A stretch of 39,303 bases of DNA, from contig JACPIO010000013.1 in the NCBI GenBank assembly GCA_016188075.1, forward strand, positions 1-39,303, read 5' to 3'. This document shows, one piece after another, positions 8,622-35,182 of the stretch. The stretch is from Candidatus Wolfebacteria bacterium (lineage in GTDB: Bacteria; Patescibacteriota; Minisyncoccia; UBA6257; UBA9933). The notes beneath the pieces are model-generated. The model did no database searches. It saw nothing but the letters and a program-made list of their open reading frames with translations, and had not been told where the DNA came from. The position numbers were made by a program, and so were the translations under genes. Each line of letters begins with the position of its first letter. The stretch's first letter is position 1.

Positions 8622-9272
8622 ATGAAAAAAATAACTGCTTCGATTTATTTTATTATTTTTCTTCTGACAATCCTTTCTTCTTTTTCTTACGCCGAGATGA
8701 TGAATAGCGCCGATCCAACAGTTTCCGAGAATCACACTGCTCGGGAAGAGATGGAAGGCAAAGAAATCTGGGAAAGATTCCAAGCCAAACAAATCGCGTG
8801 CGGAGACCTAAAAGACGATAATTTTGGAGCGCTCGGCGAATACTTTATGGGATTGATGCTGGGGCAATCCCACGAAGCAATGAACAATATGATGATTCAG
8901 ATGATGGGCGATGAAGGCGAGGAACAAATGCATGTTGTGATGGGCAAAAGACTTTCCGGATGCGATGTCGCGGCTCAATTTTCCGGACCTGCCATAGGTT
9001 TTATGCCGATGATGATGGGAGGTTGGTCGTCTCCCTTTGGTTATAATGATAAAAATATGATGGGCTATGGTTACGGCGCTGGAACATGGTTCGGCGGCGC
9101 GGGAATGATCTTTTGGTGGATCCTTATCGTTGTCGCTATCGTTTTAGTAATCAAGTGGGCAGTTATAAAACCCGGAAAGGGAAATTCCGCCATGGAAACC
9201 TTGAAGGAGCGCTACGCTAAAGGAGAAATATCAAAAGAAGAATTCGAGGAGAAACGCCGAGCAATCTCTTAA
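8622..9272 (+). CDS. Met-rich membrane protein with C-terminal SHOCT-like motif
   Basis: LKERYAKGEISKEEFEEKRRAI; signal peptide; MMG/GYGYG-rich segment. Confidence 0.7.
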   Translation: MKKITASIYFIIFLLTILSSFSYAEMMNSADPTVSENHTAREEMEGKEIWERFQAKQIACGDLKDDNFGALGEYFMGLMLGQSHEAMNNMMIQMMGDEGEEQMHVVMGKRLSGCDVAAQFSGPAIGFMPMMMGGWSSPFGYNDKNMMGYGYGAGTWFGGAGMIFWWILIVVAIVLVIKWAVIKPGKGNSAMETLKERYAKGEISKEEFEEKRRAIS

Positions 9273-9871
9273 TTTCCCTTTTCTATCCGCTCGGCGTATT
9301 CGCCGGTTTGCGTATTCACTTTTATTACATCCCCTTCGTTTATAAAAAGCGGAGCTTGGATTTTGGCGCCGGTTTCAATGACCACGGTTTTCGTGCCGCC
9401 TGCCGCAGTCGAGCCGCGGATGGCCGGCGGCGCTTCGACAACTTTGTAATCAACTTTGATTGGTAATTCGATGCCTATGATTTGGCTGTCTCCGCCAGAG
9501 GCGGATCCGCCTTCGGCGGAGAACTTAATCGCCAGAACATCTAAATTTGATTTTAGAAATTGAGCCGAGTCGCCAAGCGTTTCCGCTTGCAGGGCAAAAC
9601 GATTTTTTGGATTGCCAATCTCATCAAACCACCACTCGCCGCGATTCTCGTATAAAAATCTGGATTTCATTTTTTCGATTTCCGCTTCTTCAAATTCGTC
9701 CGCCGGCTTAAAATTCCGCTCCAAAGCCTGACCGGTTTTCAGGTTTTTTATTTTAGTCTGCACGCTCGAACCGCCGCGTCCCATGTGCAAATGCTTGACT
9801 GACAAAACAACGTAGGGATCGCCCTGAACTTTTATGATTATTCCGTTTTTGAGGTCGTTTATAGAAAGCAT
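9269..9871 (-). CDS. efp: Elongation factor P
   Basis: MLSINDLKNGIIIKVQGDPYVVLSVKHLHMGRGGSSVQTKIKNL...; start taken at MLSIND because the longer ORF runs into an upstream repeat. Confidence 0.93.
   Translation of the reverse strand: MLSINDLKNGIIIKVQGDPYVVLSVKHLHMGRGGSSVQTKIKNLKTGQALERNFKPADEFEEAEIEKMKSRFLYENRGEWWFDEIGNPKNRFALQAETLGDSAQFLKSNLDVLAIKFSAEGGSASGGDSQIIGIELPIKVDYKVVEAPPAIRGSTAAGGTKTVVIETGAKIQAPLFINEGDVIKVNTQTGEYAERIEKGN
9491..9520 (-). repeat. In-frame palindromic insert in efp (SAEGGSASGG)
   Basis: TCCGCCAGAGGCGGATCCGCCTTCGGCGGA, near-perfect palindrome, 27/30 identical to 25721-25750. Confidence 0.85.
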
Positions 9872-9884
9872 AGCAACTTTACGA

Positions 9885-9972
9885 GCATCGATGCCAATAT
9901 ACAAATAATGCGAATTATACGAATGAAACTTTATTCGTATCATTAGTAAATTCGTATATTCGCATCGATACC
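9885..9972 (-). repeat. Intergenic quasi-palindromic repeat, copy A (upstream of efp)
   Basis: GCATCGATGCCAATATAC...ATTCGTATCATTAGTAAATTCGTATATTCGCATCGATACC; related to 19856-19932 and 21900-21976. Confidence 0.9.
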
Positions 9973-9976
9973 CTTC

Positions 9977-11338
9977 CTAAAACAAGCTTTTTTGCGCATC
10001 CTCCTTTTGGCCAGATAAATTTAATTCTGTAAACACCATCTTTCCGTATTCGCCGTCATAGCCCGGTGGGTCGAATCTTATTTTACCTTCGCGGATGGCC
10101 GTAATGCCGGCGATTATTTTCTCATCAACTCCGCCAGCTCTCAATTCCTCCGCGCTTTTTTCCATCAAAACCGGAAATTCGCCCCCAAACCGCTTGATCA
10201 AATTTTCATATTCGTCTTTCACTTTACGCGAAGCAGTGCCCATATGATAAACCTTGGCAATCACTTCGTCCAACGGAACAAGATTATAATACGGCACGCG
10301 ATTTTCGTACTTGTGGAGATAACCATCTACTTTAACGTCAATCAGCGGCCGATCCGCCAATACTTCGACGCGGTTCAAGACGCCGATGGTTAATTTTTTG
10401 CCGCACTTGGGACAAAGGTTTTTATGTTTTTTGCTTTCTTCCGGCGAGAAAACTATACCGCAATCCCGATGGCCGTCAAAGTGATATTTGCCCTCTTCGG
10501 GAAAAAATTCGATCGTAGCCACGAACTTCGCGGATTCACGCTGATTATTATCCGCGCTGATCCGCGCTGCGGGAACACCATCTTTGATAGCTTCGATTAT
10601 CCCATCATACGACAGGTTAGTATCAAAAATATTCGCTTCTCGACCGATGCGCGGCAGAGAATGAGAATCGGAATTGGAAATCAAAGAAATATTGTCTAAT
10701 TGCGAGAGCCGCCAATTCATCGCCGGGTCGCTCGAGAGTCCGGTTTCCACCGCAAAAATATTTTTCGCGTACTGGCCAAAACATTCTTCGATTGAATCAA
10801 ACCCCGACATCGAACCGAACAGGCTAAACCAAGGAGTCCAAGCGTGCGCTGGCACAATCACAGCCTCGGGATTAATATTAAAAACAATTTTGGCGAGTTC
10901 CTCACTGTCTAATCCTAAAATCGGCCGGCCATCCGAAGCCAAATTTCCCACCCAGCTTAGTTGAGTATTAATTTTCTCCGCAGTCTCCATATCCGGGCTG
11001 AAAATCATATTGTGAATCCGGTAAACTTTTTTAACTCCGCTTTTTGAGAGCCGCGAATAAATTCCGGAAATTTCTACTGTCAGCATAAACCGCGTTTCGG
11101 AGAAAGAGCCACGAACCGTTGGCCACTTGAATTCTTTTTTTAGTTTAAAAAGCCCGGGCTCGGCCGGCTCTAATTTCGTTTTGATTTCATTGAACCAGGC
11201 CGGATGAGTAAAATCTCCGGTGCCCATCACTAAAATGCCTTTGTTACCGGCCCAGCAGTCGATTTGCTCCAAAACCATATCTTTCGAGGTGGCGCGGGAG
11301 TATTTGGAGTGGATTTGCAAATCAGCGATAAAACGCAT
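9977..11338 (-). CDS. PHP-domain endonuclease Q (EndoQ)-like protein
   Basis: MRFIADLQIHSKYSRATS..., SNSDSHSL, TIEFFPEEGKYHFDGHRDCG, CPKCGKKLTIGVLNRVEVLADR. Confidence 0.8.
   Translation of the reverse strand: MRFIADLQIHSKYSRATSKDMVLEQIDCWAGNKGILVMGTGDFTHPAWFNEIKTKLEPAEPGLFKLKKEFKWPTVRGSFSETRFMLTVEISGIYSRLSKSGVKKVYRIHNMIFSPDMETAEKINTQLSWVGNLASDGRPILGLDSEELAKIVFNINPEAVIVPAHAWTPWFSLFGSMSGFDSIEECFGQYAKNIFAVETGLSSDPAMNWRLSQLDNISLISNSDSHSLPRIGREANIFDTNLSYDGIIEAIKDGVPAARISADNNQRESAKFVATIEFFPEEGKYHFDGHRDCGIVFSPEESKKHKNLCPKCGKKLTIGVLNRVEVLADRPLIDVKVDGYLHKYENRVPYYNLVPLDEVIAKVYHMGTASRKVKDEYENLIKRFGGEFPVLMEKSAEELRAGGVDEKIIAGITAIREGKIRFDPPGYDGEYGKMVFTELNLSGQKEDAQKSLF
10516..10572 (-). repeat. CGCGGAT-type repeat embedded in the endoQ-like CDS
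   Basis: cgcggattcacgctgattattatccgcgctgatccgcgctg; similar words at 29595-29676. Confidence 0.6.
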
Positions 11339-18002: not shown

Positions 18003-19844
18003 CTATATAGTAATCGCGATCGGCTTCAGTCTAAAGCCTTTTATCAAAGCGTCAAATTCCTCGCGCTCCAAAGTTTCTTTTTCCATTAATTTTTTGGCGA
18101 TGGCTTTCAAAACGTTTTTTCGCGAGGTGATAATTTTTTTCGCGGTTTGGAGAGCGCCATCAATAAAGCCTTTTACTTCCTTGTCGATGTCCGCCGCTAC
18201 TTTTTCCGAGTAATTTTTTTCCGTGGCGATTTCCCGGCCCAAAAAAATCAGCTCCTCGTTTTTGCCGTAGGTAATGGGACCGAGTTTTTCGCTCATTCCA
18301 AACTTGGTAACAATCCGCCGCGCCAAATCAGAAACGCTTTGGAGATCCGAGGACGCGCCGGTTGAGATATCTCGGAAAATCAGCTTTTCGGAAACATAGC
18401 CGCCGAGAAAAACCGCCAAGTCAGCCATAAATTGTTTTTTGGTGCGCAGATGAGTTTCTTCGATGGGCAACTTCAAGGTATAGCCGCCGGCCCGTCCCCG
18501 AGCCACAATCGAAACTTTATGAACCGGATCCGCGTCTTTAATTGAAGTCGCAACCAAGGCGTGGCCAGCCTCGTGATAGGCGATAATTTCTTTTTCTTTC
18601 TGCGGCAAAACCCGGCTTCGGCGTTCCGGCCCCAGAAGAACCTTTTCAATGGAATCAAAAATATCCTGCTGGACAACTTCTTTTTGATTTTTCCGCGCGG
18701 CAAAAATCGCGGCCTCGTTCATTAAATTAGCCAGATCCGCGCCGGAGAATCCGGGGGTTCGCTCGGCCACTTTTCGCAAAGCAATGGCTTTGGCCAAAAT
18801 TTTTCCGCGGCTGTGAATTTTTAAAATTTCTTCGCGGTCATTGATGTCCGGCAGATCCAGAAAAACCCGGCGGTCAAAACGACCGGGCCGAAGCAGGGCT
18901 GGGTCCAAAATATCCGGGCGATTGGTCGCCGCTATTACGATCACCTTCGTGTCTCTTTCGAATCCATCCATCTCCACCAAAATTTGATTTAAGGTTTGTT
19001 CTCGCTCGTCGTGTCCTCCGCCAATGCCAGCGCCGCGCTCCCGGCCGATAGCGTCGATTTCATCAATAAAAACGATGCATGGAGCCGCGCGTTTGGCGGT
19101 CTGAAATAAATCTCTGACTCGACTTGAACCAACTCCTACAAACATCTCCACGAACTCCGAGCCGGAAATATGAAAAAAGGGGACATTTCCTTCGCCGGCA
19201 ATAGCCCGGGCCAATAAAGTTTTTCCGGTTCCGGGGCTCCCTAAGAGCAAAACACCTCTGGGAATCCGCGCGCCAATATCCAAATATTTTTTGGGATTTT
19301 TCAAAAAATCCACCACTTCCATCAATTCCTGTTTTACCTCTTTAAGTCCGGCCACGTCGTTAAAAGTGATTCGATCTTTAAATTGGGTAAAAAGCTTGAC
19401 GTTGGCTTTGCCAAAAGTGAAGGCTTGGCTCATTCCGGTTCGGGCCTGCCGAAACATCATCCAAAAGAAAACACCGATGATAATAAGGGGCAAAAGCGAA
19501 GGAATTAAAACGCTGGCCCAAAAATGCAAACCCGACTCCTCTTTAATCTGAAAATTAACGTTTTTTAGGGCTGCTGGCTCCAGGCCGTAATTCCGCAAGG
19601 TCTCGGTTAATCCGGCTTCCGCTTCTTTTTTGGAAACCGCTTTCTCGCCGTTTTTAAGTTCAATCGTGAGATCGTTGCCGGAAACAACAATTTTCGAAAC
19701 CCCGCCGCTATTAATTGCCGAGGCAAGATCACTAATGCTTAAAGTTTTTGGACTTCCTTCGGTAGAGTAAAAAAGAGAAAAAATAAAAGCCACGAGAAGA
19801 AACGTCCCGATCGCCCAAAGGATATTTTTAGAAAGGAGTTTCAT
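18003..19844 (-). CDS. ftsH: ATP-dependent zinc metalloprotease FtsH
   Basis: [35 protein letters not shown]; start at MKLLSK. Confidence 0.97.
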
Positions 19845-19855
19845 GCTTCGCTCGC

Positions 19856-19932
19856 GTATCGATACCAATATACAAATGTACGAATTATACGAATTCGTAT
19901 CATTAGTATAATTCGCATATTCGCATCGATAC
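19856..19932 (-). repeat. Intergenic quasi-palindromic repeat, copy B (between S1 gene and ftsH)
   Basis: GTATCGATACCAATATACAAATGTACGAATTATACGAATTCGTATCATTAGTATAATTCGCATATTCGCATCGATAC. Confidence 0.93.
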
Positions 19933-20994
19933 TTATTTCTTTATTTTCAAAATAATTCGTTTCTCTTCGGGTTTTACTGATTCGATAATAAATCTATACT
20001 CTTTGCCCGGTTCCAATTCTTTTTTCATTTCTTCCAGGCCGCCGAATTCAGAAACATGAACCAGGCCGTGAAGATCGTGGTCTAAACTGATGTAGGCGCC
20101 AAAGGGGTTAAATTTAGAAAGCCGGCCGCCAATTTCCTCGCCAGCCCGGAATACCTCGCCGGCCTTATCCCACGGGTTGGGAGTTAGCGCCTTGATAGAC
20201 AAAGAAACCTGACCGTCTTTTATGTCTATAATTTTAACTTTTACCGATTCATCCACCTTTAAAACTTCTTTGGGACTATCAATCAAACGATGGTCAATTT
20301 CCGAAATATGAACCAAGCCTTCAATGGCCGGGGTATCGACAAACCGGACAAAAGCGCCGAAATCGGCCAAGCCGGAGATAACGCCGTCCACCACATCGCC
20401 TACGGCATACTTGCTTACCAGCTCTTTAAGATTTTCTCCCACCGCTTCTTTTTCGGAAAGGATTAACTTGGTAGTTCTCGGATTAAAATCCAAAATTTTC
20501 ACCTTGAGATCCTGTCCGACAAATTTTCTTAAGGACACCGGCAAAAAGGCCTTAATCTGGTTGACTTCGGCGACCAGGCCGCCGCTGTTGGCTCCAATCA
20601 CCTTCACTTCCAGAACCTCCCCGCTGTCTCGCCACTCCTTAAGCTCTTGCCAATTCTTCTGCTTATGAGCGCCGGCCAAAGAAAGTTCAACCAGCCCCTC
20701 TTCGCCGTCCAGGTCCGCCACTTTGGCGCTTATCAAAGAGTCAAGCTCCAAATCTTTAACCAAATTTCTGGCGTTTAAAAATTCCGAGCCGTAGAGAATG
20801 CCGGTTCCGAATTTTCCCAAATCAAAATAAATCCGCCGCGGCGCTTTTTTTAAAAGTCTTGCTTCTATCAAATCTCCGATCTTTAAAAAAGAAACTAAAT
20901 CGGCTTCATTTTTGATGAGCTGGCCGATCGGAGAAGTTAATCTTTTATTCGTAATCACTGCCATAGGTTGAATCGCTGGAGGTAAATTCGCCAA
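19933..20994 (-). CDS. S1 RNA-binding domain protein (ribosomal protein S1-like)
   Basis: Repeated S1 motifs, e.g. GDVVDGVISGLADFGAFVRF...GLVHISEIDHR. Confidence 0.88.
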   Translation of the reverse strand: MANLPPAIQPMAVITNKRLTSPIGQLIKNEADLVSFLKIGDLIEARLLKKAPRRIYFDLGKFGTGILYGSEFLNARNLVKDLELDSLISAKVADLDGEEGLVELSLAGAHKQKNWQELKEWRDSGEVLEVKVIGANSGGLVAEVNQIKAFLPVSLRKFVGQDLKVKILDFNPRTTKLILSEKEAVGENLKELVSKYAVGDVVDGVISGLADFGAFVRFVDTPAIEGLVHISEIDHRLIDSPKEVLKVDESVKVKIIDIKDGQVSLSIKALTPNPWDKAGEVFRAGEEIGGRLSKFNPFGAYISLDHDLHGLVHVSEFGGLEEMKKELEPGKEYRFIIESVKPEEKRIILKIKK

Positions 20995-21344: not shown

Positions 21345-21899
21345 GTGATGACGACTACAAACAAATATCAGCGAGTTGGGGTTTTTATAGACATCCAAAA
21401 TCTCTACCACTCGTCCAAACATCTTTATCGGGCTCGGGTCAACTACCGAGAACTGATGCGCGAACTCACCATGGGCCGGCAGCTTATTCGCGCCATCGGT
21501 TATGTGGTAAAAAGCGAGGAGACTTCGCCGACAAGAGAGGCGCCACGAGCTGACGGCCAGAGACTGACCTCTTCCGAGGCGGCTTTTTTTGACGCCCTGG
21601 GGAAAAGCGGGATTGAGCTTCGAGTAAAAGATCTCCAAATTTTTCCGGATGGAACCAAAAAAGCGGATTGGGATGTGGGGATGGCAGTAGATGCCATAAG
21701 AATGGCCGGATTGCTGGACGTAATAATTCTGGTTACCGGCGATGGCGATTTCGTACCCTTGGTTAATTATCTTAAATGGGGTCTGGGCCGAGTAGTGGAA
21801 GTGTCTGCCTTTGGCCGAAGCGCTTCGGCAAAGCTCAAAGAAGCGGCGGATGTTTTTGTAGACCTGGACCAAATACCAAAAGTGATATTAAAAAGATAA
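21345..21899 (+). CDS. NYN domain (LabA/DUF88-like) protein
   Basis: GVFIDIQNLYHSSK, DWDVGMAVDAIRMAG, VTGDGDFVPLVNYL. Confidence 0.88.
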   Translation: MMTTTNKYQRVGVFIDIQNLYHSSKHLYRARVNYRELMRELTMGRQLIRAIGYVVKSEETSPTREAPRADGQRLTSSEAAFFDALGKSGIELRVKDLQIFPDGTKKADWDVGMAVDAIRMAGLLDVIILVTGDGDFVPLVNYLKWGLGRVVEVSAFGRSASAKLKEAADVFVDLDQIPKVILKR

Positions 21900-21976
21900 G
21901 TAGCGATTCGAATATACGAATGTACGAATTATACGAATTCGTATCATTAGTATAATTCGTATATTGGCATCGATAC
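21900..21976 (+). repeat. Intergenic quasi-palindromic repeat, copy C (upstream of pnp)
   Basis: TAGCGATTCGAATATACGAATGTACGAATTATACGAATTCGTATCATTAGTATAATTCGTATATTGGCATCGATAC. Confidence 0.93.
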
Positions 21977-21984
21977 ATTTATTA

Positions 21985-24114
21985 ATGAATCTTAACAAAA
22001 AACAATTTAATCTCGATTTTGGCGGACAGCCGGTCAGTCTCACTATCTCCCAAATGGCTGAGCAGGCCAATGCCGCTGTTTTAGGGCAGCACGGGGAGAC
22101 CGCGGTTTTAGTCACTGTTACACTGGGCAAAGAAGACCGAAATATCGACTATTTCCCGCTCGTAGTTGATTACGAAGAAAAATTTTACGCGGCCGGAAAA
22201 ATCATTGGCAGCCGATTTATCAGGCGCGAGGGTCGGCCGTCAGAAGAAGCGGTTTTATCCGGCCGCTTGATTGACCGAAGCCTACGGCCTCTTTTCCCCC
22301 AAAATCTGCGGCGCGACGTGCAAATTATTATCACGGTCCTTTCTTACGACGAAGAAAATGATCCGGAGTTTATCGCGCTTTTATCGGCCTCCGCCGCGCT
22401 CGCTATATCCGAAGTTCCCTGGAACGGGCCAGTGGCCGGCGTAAGAATCGCGGTAAAAAAAGACGGCGAGATCGCCGTAAGCCCCAAAAATTCTTTAATT
22501 AAGGAATTTGGAGAATTCGCTCTCGAAACCTTTGTTTCCGGCACCGAAGAAAAAATAAATATGCTTGAGTTGGCCGGCAACGAATCAAGCGAGGCGGAAA
22601 CCGTTCGCGCCTTCGGAGCAGCCCAGACCGAAATCGCAAAATTAATTCAGTTTGTAAAAAGCATCGTGAAGGAATACGGCAAAGAAAAGATTAAAGTTCC
22701 GGACTCTGAAGAAAATTTAGAACTCAAAAAGAAAATCGTAAATTTTCTGAAAGATAAGATAGAAAACGCGATTTACCAAAAAGATAAAACCGAGAGATTT
22801 AGAGAAATCGCGGAAATGAAAGAAGCTCTAAAAAACCATCTAACCGAAGAGGGATTAAGCGGCGCTGATCTCGCTCCGGTCAACCGTCTTCTGGAAGAAG
22901 AAGTGGGACGCATAGTAAGAAAAAATATTCTGGAGAGCGAAAAACGGCCGGACGGCCGAAGACTCGACGAAGTGCGCGAACTCCACGCCGAAGTCGGTTT
23001 ATTTAAACGGCTGCACGGATCAGCCTTATTTGCCCGGGGCAATACCCAGGCATTAGCCGCGGTCACCCTGGCTGCTCCCGGGGCAGAGCAATTAATCGAG
23101 ACAATGGAAATTTCAACCAAGCGCCGATTTATGCTTCATTATAATTTTCCGCCTTATTCCGTGGGCGAAATCGGGCGCTTGGGCGCGCCGGGACGGCGGG
23201 AGATCGGCCACGGCGCTTTGGCGGAAAAAGGATTAAGACCCCTTATACCATCGCAAGACGAATTTCCGTACACCATTCGTTTGGTTTCGGAGATTCTGTC
23301 TTCCAACGGTTCGTCCTCTATGGCAACTGTTTCGGCCGGTTCTCTGGCTTTAATGGACGCCGGCGTGCCCATAAGAAAAGCAGCGGCTGGTATCGCCATG
23401 GGGCTCATCACAGACAAAACCAATAACCAACAACTAACAACCAACAACTATAAGATACTGACCGACCTTCAAGGGCCGGAGGATCACCACGGCGATATGG
23501 ATTTCAAAGTGGCCGGCACCAAAGACGGCATCACCGCCATTCAGCTTGATGTAAAAATCGAAGGCTTAACCATAGAAATAATTGGGGCAACCTTGACCCA
23601 GGCGAAAAAAGCCCGGCTCGAGATTCTTGACGCTATGAACGCGACCATTGCCCAGCCCAGAGCAGAGGTTTCCTCCTACGCGCCGGTTATTATGACAACC
23701 AACGTAAGGCCGGATCAGATTGGCGAGGTCATCGGGCCAGCTGGGAAAATAATCAACGGCATTATTGCCGCAACCGGCGTTTTAAGCATTGATATTGAAC
23801 AAACCGGAAAGGTTTTTGTCGCGGCTCACGACATAGACAAAGCCCGGGCCGCCATCGCGCAAGTCCAAGCGATAACGCGCACTTTCGAGATTGGCGAAAT
23901 TATCGAGGGAGAGATTATAAAAATTTTAGACTTCGGAGCGATTGTGGACTTAGGCGGCGGCAAAGACGGAATGATTCATGTCTCGGAATTAAAAGAAGGC
24001 TTTGTCCAGAAAGTGGAGGATGTGGTGAAATTAGGCGATAAGGTAAAAGCGAAAATCATAAGAGCCGAGAATGGAAAAATCGGACTGTCGATTAAAGCGC
24101 TGCCCCACGACTGA
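21985..24114 (+). CDS. pnp: Polyribonucleotide nucleotidyltransferase
   Basis: GRLIDRSLRPLFP, LTDLQGPEDHHGDMDFKVAGT, KH then S1 C-terminal domains. Confidence 0.96.
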   Translation: MNLNKKQFNLDFGGQPVSLTISQMAEQANAAVLGQHGETAVLVTVTLGKEDRNIDYFPLVVDYEEKFYAAGKIIGSRFIRREGRPSEEAVLSGRLIDRSLRPLFPQNLRRDVQIIITVLSYDEENDPEFIALLSASAALAISEVPWNGPVAGVRIAVKKDGEIAVSPKNSLIKEFGEFALETFVSGTEEKINMLELAGNESSEAETVRAFGAAQTEIAKLIQFVKSIVKEYGKEKIKVPDSEENLELKKKIVNFLKDKIENAIYQKDKTERFREIAEMKEALKNHLTEEGLSGADLAPVNRLLEEEVGRIVRKNILESEKRPDGRRLDEVRELHAEVGLFKRLHGSALFARGNTQALAAVTLAAPGAEQLIETMEISTKRRFMLHYNFPPYSVGEIGRLGAPGRREIGHGALAEKGLRPLIPSQDEFPYTIRLVSEILSSNGSSSMATVSAGSLALMDAGVPIRKAAAGIAMGLITDKTNNQQLTTNNYKILTDLQGPEDHHGDMDFKVAGTKDGITAIQLDVKIEGLTIEIIGATLTQAKKARLEILDAMNATIAQPRAEVSSYAPVIMTTNVRPDQIGEVIGPAGKIINGIIAATGVLSIDIEQTGKVFVAAHDIDKARAAIAQVQAITRTFEIGEIIEGEIIKILDFGAIVDLGGGKDGMIHVSELKEGFVQKVEDVVKLGDKVKAKIIRAENGKIGLSIKALPHD

Positions 24115-24372: not shown

Positions 24373-24530
24373 GCAGTAATTAGTAAATGGTAATTAGTAA
24401 TTAGGCTATAATAAGAAGGTTTTAATGTCAATCATTTTCAAATATAATAAGAATCAGAGGGCAGTTGAGCGGCGCCCTGTTCCCCAACTACTTTAATTGC
24501 TAATTACTATTTACCAATTACCGATTAATG
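24373..24530. repeat. Imperfect inverted repeat arms (AGTAAATGGTAATTAGTAATTA type) bracketing the divergent rpsT/ruvA promoter region
   Basis: Left taattagtaaatggtaattagtaatta; right arm is its near reverse complement. Confidence 0.7.
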
Positions 24531-25106
24531 CTTTATTCCATTTCCGGAAAACTGCTCGCTAAAAAATCCGATTTTGCCGTTATGGAAACCAACGGTTTGG
24601 GACTCGCAATTTTCGCTTCGGGGCAAACGCTCCGCAAATTGCCCAAAATCGGCGGCCGGGCGAAGTTATTTATTTATCTCTACAATCATCAGAACGGCGC
24701 GGAAATTTACGGCTTTTTTTCGGAAAAAGAGCGCGAATTTTTTGAATCCCTAATTTCTATAAATGGAATTGGGGCTCGGGCCGCTTTAAAAATTTTAGGC
24801 GTTGCCAGATTCGAAAATCTCATCTCCGCCATCAAAACCGGCCGGAGCGATTTTTTGGTTAGGGCCGCGGGCATCGGCAGGAAGAAAGCCGAACGCATCA
24901 TATTAGAACTTAAAGACAAAAAAGGGGGGGCGTTGCTGGCAAAGGGCGATAATTCTTTAGAGCTAAATTACGAAGTAAGCGAAGCTCTCAAAGCCCTGGG
25001 ATACAGGCGAAACGAAACCGAGGAAGCGATTCAAAAAATATCGCCCAAGGCTAAAACTCTCGAAGAAAAAATAAAATCCGCCTTAAAAATTTTGAGCCGC
25101 CAATGA
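24528..25106 (+). CDS. ruvA: Holliday junction branch migration protein RuvA
   Basis: LYSISGKLL...LFIYLYNHQNGAEIYGFFSEKEREFFESLISINGIGARAALKIL...GIGRKKAERIILELKDK. Confidence 0.93.
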   Translation: MLYSISGKLLAKKSDFAVMETNGLGLAIFASGQTLRKLPKIGGRAKLFIYLYNHQNGAEIYGFFSEKEREFFESLISINGIGARAALKILGVARFENLISAIKTGRSDFLVRAAGIGRKKAERIILELKDKKGGALLAKGDNSLELNYEVSEALKALGYRRNETEEAIQKISPKAKTLEEKIKSALKILSRQ

Positions 25107-28986: not shown

Positions 28987-29017
28987 TAAGGTAGCAATTC
29001 GAATATACAAAACATTT

Positions 29018-35159: not shown

Positions 35160-35182
35160 AAAAGTATCGATGCCAATACTTT

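Follow-up and report, generated by a model that had tools for sequence, protein, structure and literature searches.

The window, a stretch of 39,303 nucleotides taken at its full length, carries three quasi-palindromic elements of 77 to 87 bp, each filling a gap between the stop codon of one gene and the start codon of the next, before efp, ftsH and pnp (Table 1). They had been described in an earlier account made from the letters of the DNA (here, the sequence-only reading), and direct reading of the sequence confirms that they are real, with the coordinates given in the table. As that account had it, each lies between co-directional genes and presents the end TATTGGYATCGATRC to the start codon. 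In the three copies the upstream stop ends 0 to 5 nt before the element and the ATG follows 8 to 13 nt beyond it. The two 77-bp copies are 92% identical. A motif, CGTATCATTAGTA, sought with at most two mismatches, occurs five times in the window (0.36 expected), all within the three copies. Decayed remnants are listed with the full elements.

Table 1. Palindromic elements, remnants and neighbouring genes in the window
Feature	Position	Strand	Details
Palindromic element between NYN gene and pnp	21900..21976	+ (strand of flanking genes)	77 bp; stop TAA ends at 21899, pnp ATG at 21985
Palindromic element between S1-domain gene and ftsH	19856..19932	-	77 bp; abuts the stop; 11 nt before ftsH ATG
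Palindromic element between endoQ-like gene and efp	9885..9971	-	87 bp, longer loop; 5 nt after the stop, 13 nt before efp ATG
Decayed left-arm remnant (GTAGCAATTCGAATATAC...) in a stop-to-start gap, without right arm	28990..29010	+	90% match to element bases 1-21
Right-end remnant TATTGGCATCGATAC	35164..35178	-	Exact 15-base match; 4 nt before ATG (35159, minus strand)
Upstream neighbour, NYN-domain protein	21348..21899	+	PF01936, 107 bits
Downstream neighbour, polyribonucleotide nucleotidyltransferase (pnp)	21985..24114	+	RNase_PH, PNPase and S1 domains
Upstream neighbour, S1-domain RNA-binding protein	19933..20964	-	PF00575
Downstream neighbour, FtsH protease	18003..19844	-	Peptidase_M41, AAA, FtsH_ext
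Upstream neighbour, endoQ-like (PHP-type) protein	9977..11338	-	453 aa; weak Pfam support, PHP_C below cut-off
Downstream neighbour, elongation factor P (efp)	9269..9871	-	EFP_N, Elong-fact-P_C

Other repeats are also present in the window. Inverted arms with a TAATTAG-type array, another short-unit family, lie 95 nt apart downstream of pnp (24373-24404 and 24500-24531), and palindromes of the TATCGAGGTTNAACCTCGATA type at 798-825 and 969-1020 are similar to a repeat found beside RAYT-like genes.

Read toward the downstream gene, the element consists of a foot, three units of the ATACKAAT type, a loop, three inverted units and a second foot, so that each arm combines a foot with 7-9 nt units repeated in tandem. 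Mismatches between the arms fall in fixed columns and, as judged by eye from aligned copies, the central part of some copies is flipped relative to the ends. The polarity seen in the window is general in this genome: about 14 of the 15 copies with an assignable end agree (by eye). It is mostly reversed in a related genome, G004, and is therefore probably a founder feature of each genome. A small GC hairpin (GCGAAGC, GCGTAAGC or GCTTTAGC) is often found between element and ATG in several genera (for example, at 19846-19855 in the window); it is recurrent and variable.

The genome to which the window belongs (G000) lies within the Patescibacteria (CPR), as judged by its relatives. The assembly comprises 676 kb in 26 contigs and is 96% complete; genome statistics were computed on about 370 kb of contigs. 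A genome-wide count of copies, suggested in the sequence-only reading, gives 18 full-length copies, a half copy, a number of decayed ones and more divergent array families. The element is present in 39 of 101 related genomes. When 85,488 species genomes were scanned, every one of the 73 matches with a named lineage proved to be CPR; a few carry only the label 'bacterium'.

Copies are far from randomly placed with respect to gene orientation and start codons, in keeping with the sequence-only reading. Seventeen of the 18 full copies have flanking genes that run in one direction; the remaining copy is between convergent genes, and no copy separates divergent ones (in this count L35|L20 was assigned by eye). 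Most are in conserved operons, about 0-8 nt after the stop and 3-14 nt before the start. The flanking pairs, named by eye, include hisS|HIT, greA|lysS, S14|S8, rpoA|L17, S19|L22|S3, S6|ssb|S18 and L35|L20; several of these are conserved operon neighbours, which implies that the element was inserted between them. Among AT-rich palindromes in general, 24 of 53 leave no more than 25 nt of the gap unfilled, whereas gaps that short account for only 2.5% of the empty co-directional gap sequence (p=2e-24), and more than the expected share falls in ribosomal-protein gaps (14 of 25 versus 32 of 251, p=2e-6); both sets of counts are approximate, having been obtained with a simple gene caller that misses small genes. 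Elsewhere in the CPR, co-directional genes flank 58 of 63 classified copies, against a background of 437 of 508 gaps. These copies are mostly close to the upstream stop, and their distance to the start peaks at about 10 nt (9-11 nt).

Translation starts in this genome show little sign of a Shine-Dalgarno site: GGAG is found upstream of 5% of ATG starts compared with a background of 5.8%. Since few genes have such a site, extra sequence beside the start may be tolerated, and the near-absence of Shine-Dalgarno sites probably helps a segment of 80-500 bp to sit beside a start codon with little harm. T occupies position -1 in 49% of ATG starts in this genome.

Comparison of the S10-spc operon in 20 relatives identifies the palindromes as insertions. 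The corresponding gaps mostly measure either about 0-20 nt or about 75-115 nt, and the set that is filled differs from genome to genome; in one relative (G009) the same operon has almost no gaps. Many of the fillers are inverted arrays of other units (TACGAAT, TACGAAA, GGACTAC, AACTAAC, CACTAGC, ATGAAAC, AAATCGC and others). Because relatives leave these gaps unoccupied or have other families in them, each copy represents an insertion into a gap of an ancestral operon; the copies have been amplified within genomes and are decaying. Copies within a genome are more alike than copies from different genomes, arm identity being 0.89 within the window's genome versus 0.70-0.84 between most genomes. 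No target-site duplication was found for this palindrome family (mean shared flank 1.5 versus 1.78 for shuffled sequence). Other insertions in this operon have precise empty counterparts in two congeners. Start codons of the S10-spc operon in G018 and G008 (L171, L173) are also the site of further MITE-like insertions, whose inverted ends are of the ordinary kind (CCCGTTAGAAAT.. and CCCAGTATTACAACTTCGA..) and which come with an apparent ATGA or TATG duplication that restores the start.

Compensatory changes in the stem, for which the sequence-only reading had proposed a search, do occur: the arms covary across genomes, with 54 double-changed cells versus 25 in shuffled data. Mismatches between the arms on the mRNA strand include 268 G-U and 298 A-C pairs. 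Since these mismatches show no G-U bias, the pairing is not RNA-specific, and its preservation suggests a cause in the DNA or in copying and not in mRNA structure. These figures bear directly on the alternative that the palindromes are cis-regulatory intercistronic RNA hairpins with a REP/BIME-like function, selected to stabilise, process or translationally tune operon mRNAs. Nearly all copies lie within operons and near both stop and start, and the excess in ribosomal-protein operons, the covarying arms, the preferred distance to the start and the frequent GC hairpin before the ATG would all suit such a role. However, selection for mRNA pairing should yield an excess of G-U over A-C, which is not seen, so that a function in mRNA structure is unsupported; in addition, the orthologous gaps of relatives are empty or hold unrelated arrays, the operon of G009 has almost no gaps, and long versions of the element contain a nuclease gene (see below). 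We regard regulatory hairpins as unlikely. The sequence-only reading, which spoke of a dispersed MITE/REP-like element with a possible promoter, RNA-processing or translation-control role, was right as to the kind of element, while the proposed roles draw no support from the mismatches or from the orthologous gaps.

Long versions were sought as arms of the kind found in the window's palindromes (A-type) lying far apart. At six loci in six other CPR genomes, each of a different genus, such arms flank an insert of 376-400 bp (about 385 bp) containing a single reading frame of about 130 codons, which starts within the left arm or beside it. The encoded protein is GxxExxY (TIGR04256/PF13366), a member of the PD-(D/E)XK nuclease family, with scores above the curated cut-offs (60.7 bits versus 35 for TIGR04256; 63.6 and 107.8 bits versus 22 for PF13366). 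The residues of the nuclease active-site pattern (D, ExK and QxxxY) are invariant in nine aligned GxxExxY proteins.

The window's genome contains three GxxExxY genes, all bounded by inverted short-unit arrays. One has C-type arms and sits directly after a stop and just before an ATG, a second has TACGAAA arms, and the third, which has arms of the ACGCGGA type, is an in-frame insertion in lepA (L253, contig C11:31660-32001). Palindromes of the C and TACGAAA types occur without a gene in the same genome, at EF-Tu|S10, L5|S14 and S8|L6, so that arms are found there both with and without a gene. No full-length A-type GxxExxY element is present in this 96% complete assembly. In relatives, GxxExxY domains are also seen in frame inside recG-like proteins (L257, L258 and L269), two of them (L257 and L258) at the identical place between helicase motifs; some in-frame insertions have arms of the ACGCGGA/CGCAGATT type.

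Across relatives, flanking inverted repeats score above the 99% control level at 19 of 32 GxxExxY loci (p=3e-16); the other 13, some of which are cut off by contig ends, do not surpass it. Full elements measure about 430-540 bp and mostly obey the same stop/start rule as the palindromes, and the nuclease gene is co-oriented with both neighbours in all 20 full elements where this was called. Beyond the CPR, plasmids of Bacteroides and Bernardetia carry GxxExxY genes that have inverted ACAGAG-type arrays and co-directional genes on either side; in four of the six plasmid cases outside the CPR (Treponema, Gemmatirosa, Persicobacter and Fusobacteria) no arms above the control level were found. The literature searched contains only two incidental mentions of GxxExxY and no functional study, no paper on PDDEXK_3 and nothing matching these elements among work on CPR palindromes or heptamer hairpins; no structurally solved relative of GxxExxY was found.

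The explanation that we consider likely, on the evidence of sequence comparison, is that GxxExxY elements, which would themselves be mobile, gave rise to the palindromes by internal deletion, as short, non-autonomous, MITE-like derivatives. The full element, put at about 450-540 bp in this account, has at either end a foot joined to an inverted array of 7-9 nt units, with a single GxxExxY gene in the middle; its left arm runs into the 5' end of the gene. The nuclease would be expressed by read-through transcription of the host operon and would cut gene junctions, into which the element would be copied with no duplication of the target. If the interior were lost, the two arms would remain and form a palindrome, and this gene-less form may still move in trans. 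Both the sense orientation and the preference for operon gaps could then arise because a promoterless nuclease gene needs a transcribed operon for its expression.

A different account makes the arrays an independent repeat system (self-amplifying short-unit palindromes or template-switching copies), in which GxxExxY genes have settled as passengers or parasites. Many array families are known here as palindromes only, both the units and their numbers vary, and one genome (G020) has many arrays and no GxxExxY match at E<=1e-6. Settlement of this kind nevertheless fits poorly with the matched arm pairs and constant 376-400 bp interior of the GxxExxY elements in six genera, with a start codon in or beside the left arm, and with the similar arms that flank a GxxExxY gene in Bacteroidota; we think it rather improbable. 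That the palindromes are REPIN-like and mobilised by Y1 (RAYT-type) tyrosine transposases, as proteobacterial REPs are, seems very improbable. The genome has four RAYT-like genes and one IS200-like Y1 gene, and REPs too lie between unidirectional or convergent genes, near the upstream stop (PMC3733652), but the RAYT genes adjoin a different palindrome, TACGAGGNTTAACCTCGTA, and two genomes with arrays (G005 and G016) have no Y1 match at E<=1e-3. A RAYT/REPIN origin was accordingly rejected, there being no consistent co-occurrence of the arrays with Y1 genes. Also rejected were a DNA uptake sequence (ATACGAAT occurs 78 times in 370 kb, on both strands, and is not dispersed in very many copies outside palindromes), integron-like cassettes (the flanking pairs are ancestral operon neighbours), an RNA element under selection (no wobble bias), a known RNA family (an Rfam search of the window at the gathering score gave only three tRNAs, none on the element) and a phage-borne origin (no match to the element pattern in viral contigs and none to GxxExxY in phages).

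The new point is the link between the palindromes and GxxExxY. A wider proposal, again drawn from sequence and to which we give about even chances, is that an undescribed class of minimal mobile element, with one PD-(D/E)XK nuclease gene between inverted short-unit arrays, has GxxExxY proteins as its enzymes. Such elements would enter the stop-start junctions of transcribed operons in sense, or coding genes in frame, without target duplication; palindromic derivatives left behind by them would crowd the CPR ribosomal-protein operons, and the elements would occur in Bacteroidota as well. A widespread and little-studied protein family would thereby gain its first role, one that the matched inverted arrays and the precise insertion rule make directly testable. 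The proposal also offers a possible origin for the repeat-filled ribosomal operons of the CPR, and possibly for other palindromes without a known transposase, and a picture of mobile DNA that does little damage when it settles between the genes of an operon, in a lineage that hardly uses Shine-Dalgarno sites.

Several known systems share features with these elements. Integron attC sites form a hairpin right after a stop codon, with conserved mismatches and a variable loop, and the palindrome does the same; unlike shuffled cassettes, however, it lies between ancestral operon neighbours, and no attC-type end boxes were seen. Free-standing homing endonuclease genes are small nuclease genes placed between, or in frame within, conserved genes without disrupting them. 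GxxExxY genes are likewise found between genes or in frame (lepA, recG), but they have inverted short-unit arrays on both sides and many gene-less copies alongside them; for these genes, homing and cleavage are putative.

REP, BIME and REPIN sequences are palindromic and extragenic, lie between unidirectional or convergent genes, and are often less than 20 bp from the upstream stop, sometimes supplying its last bases (PMC3733652, PMC3116915). The elements described here resemble them in being palindromic, in their extragenic placement and in their proximity to the upstream stop. They differ in having neither the GTAG/CGTC tag system nor a RAYT link, in being longer and tight to the downstream start too, and in that the long versions encode GxxExxY.

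In kind the palindromes are like MITEs, which are also short, gene-less, multi-copy derivatives, with inverted repeats, of a longer coding element that has the same ends. Ends common to a longer coding element are found for the A-type arms in six other CPR genomes and for the C- and TACGAAA-type arms in the window's own genome; the palindromes are multi-copy (the 18 full copies), and the S10-spc gaps are empty or occupied according to the genome. The palindromes depart from MITEs in that no target-site duplication was found for them and in having ends made of arrays of 7-9 nt units. Their placement is sense-oriented at stop-start junctions, and the parent gene encodes not a DDE or Y1 transposase but a nuclease of the PD-(D/E)XK family.
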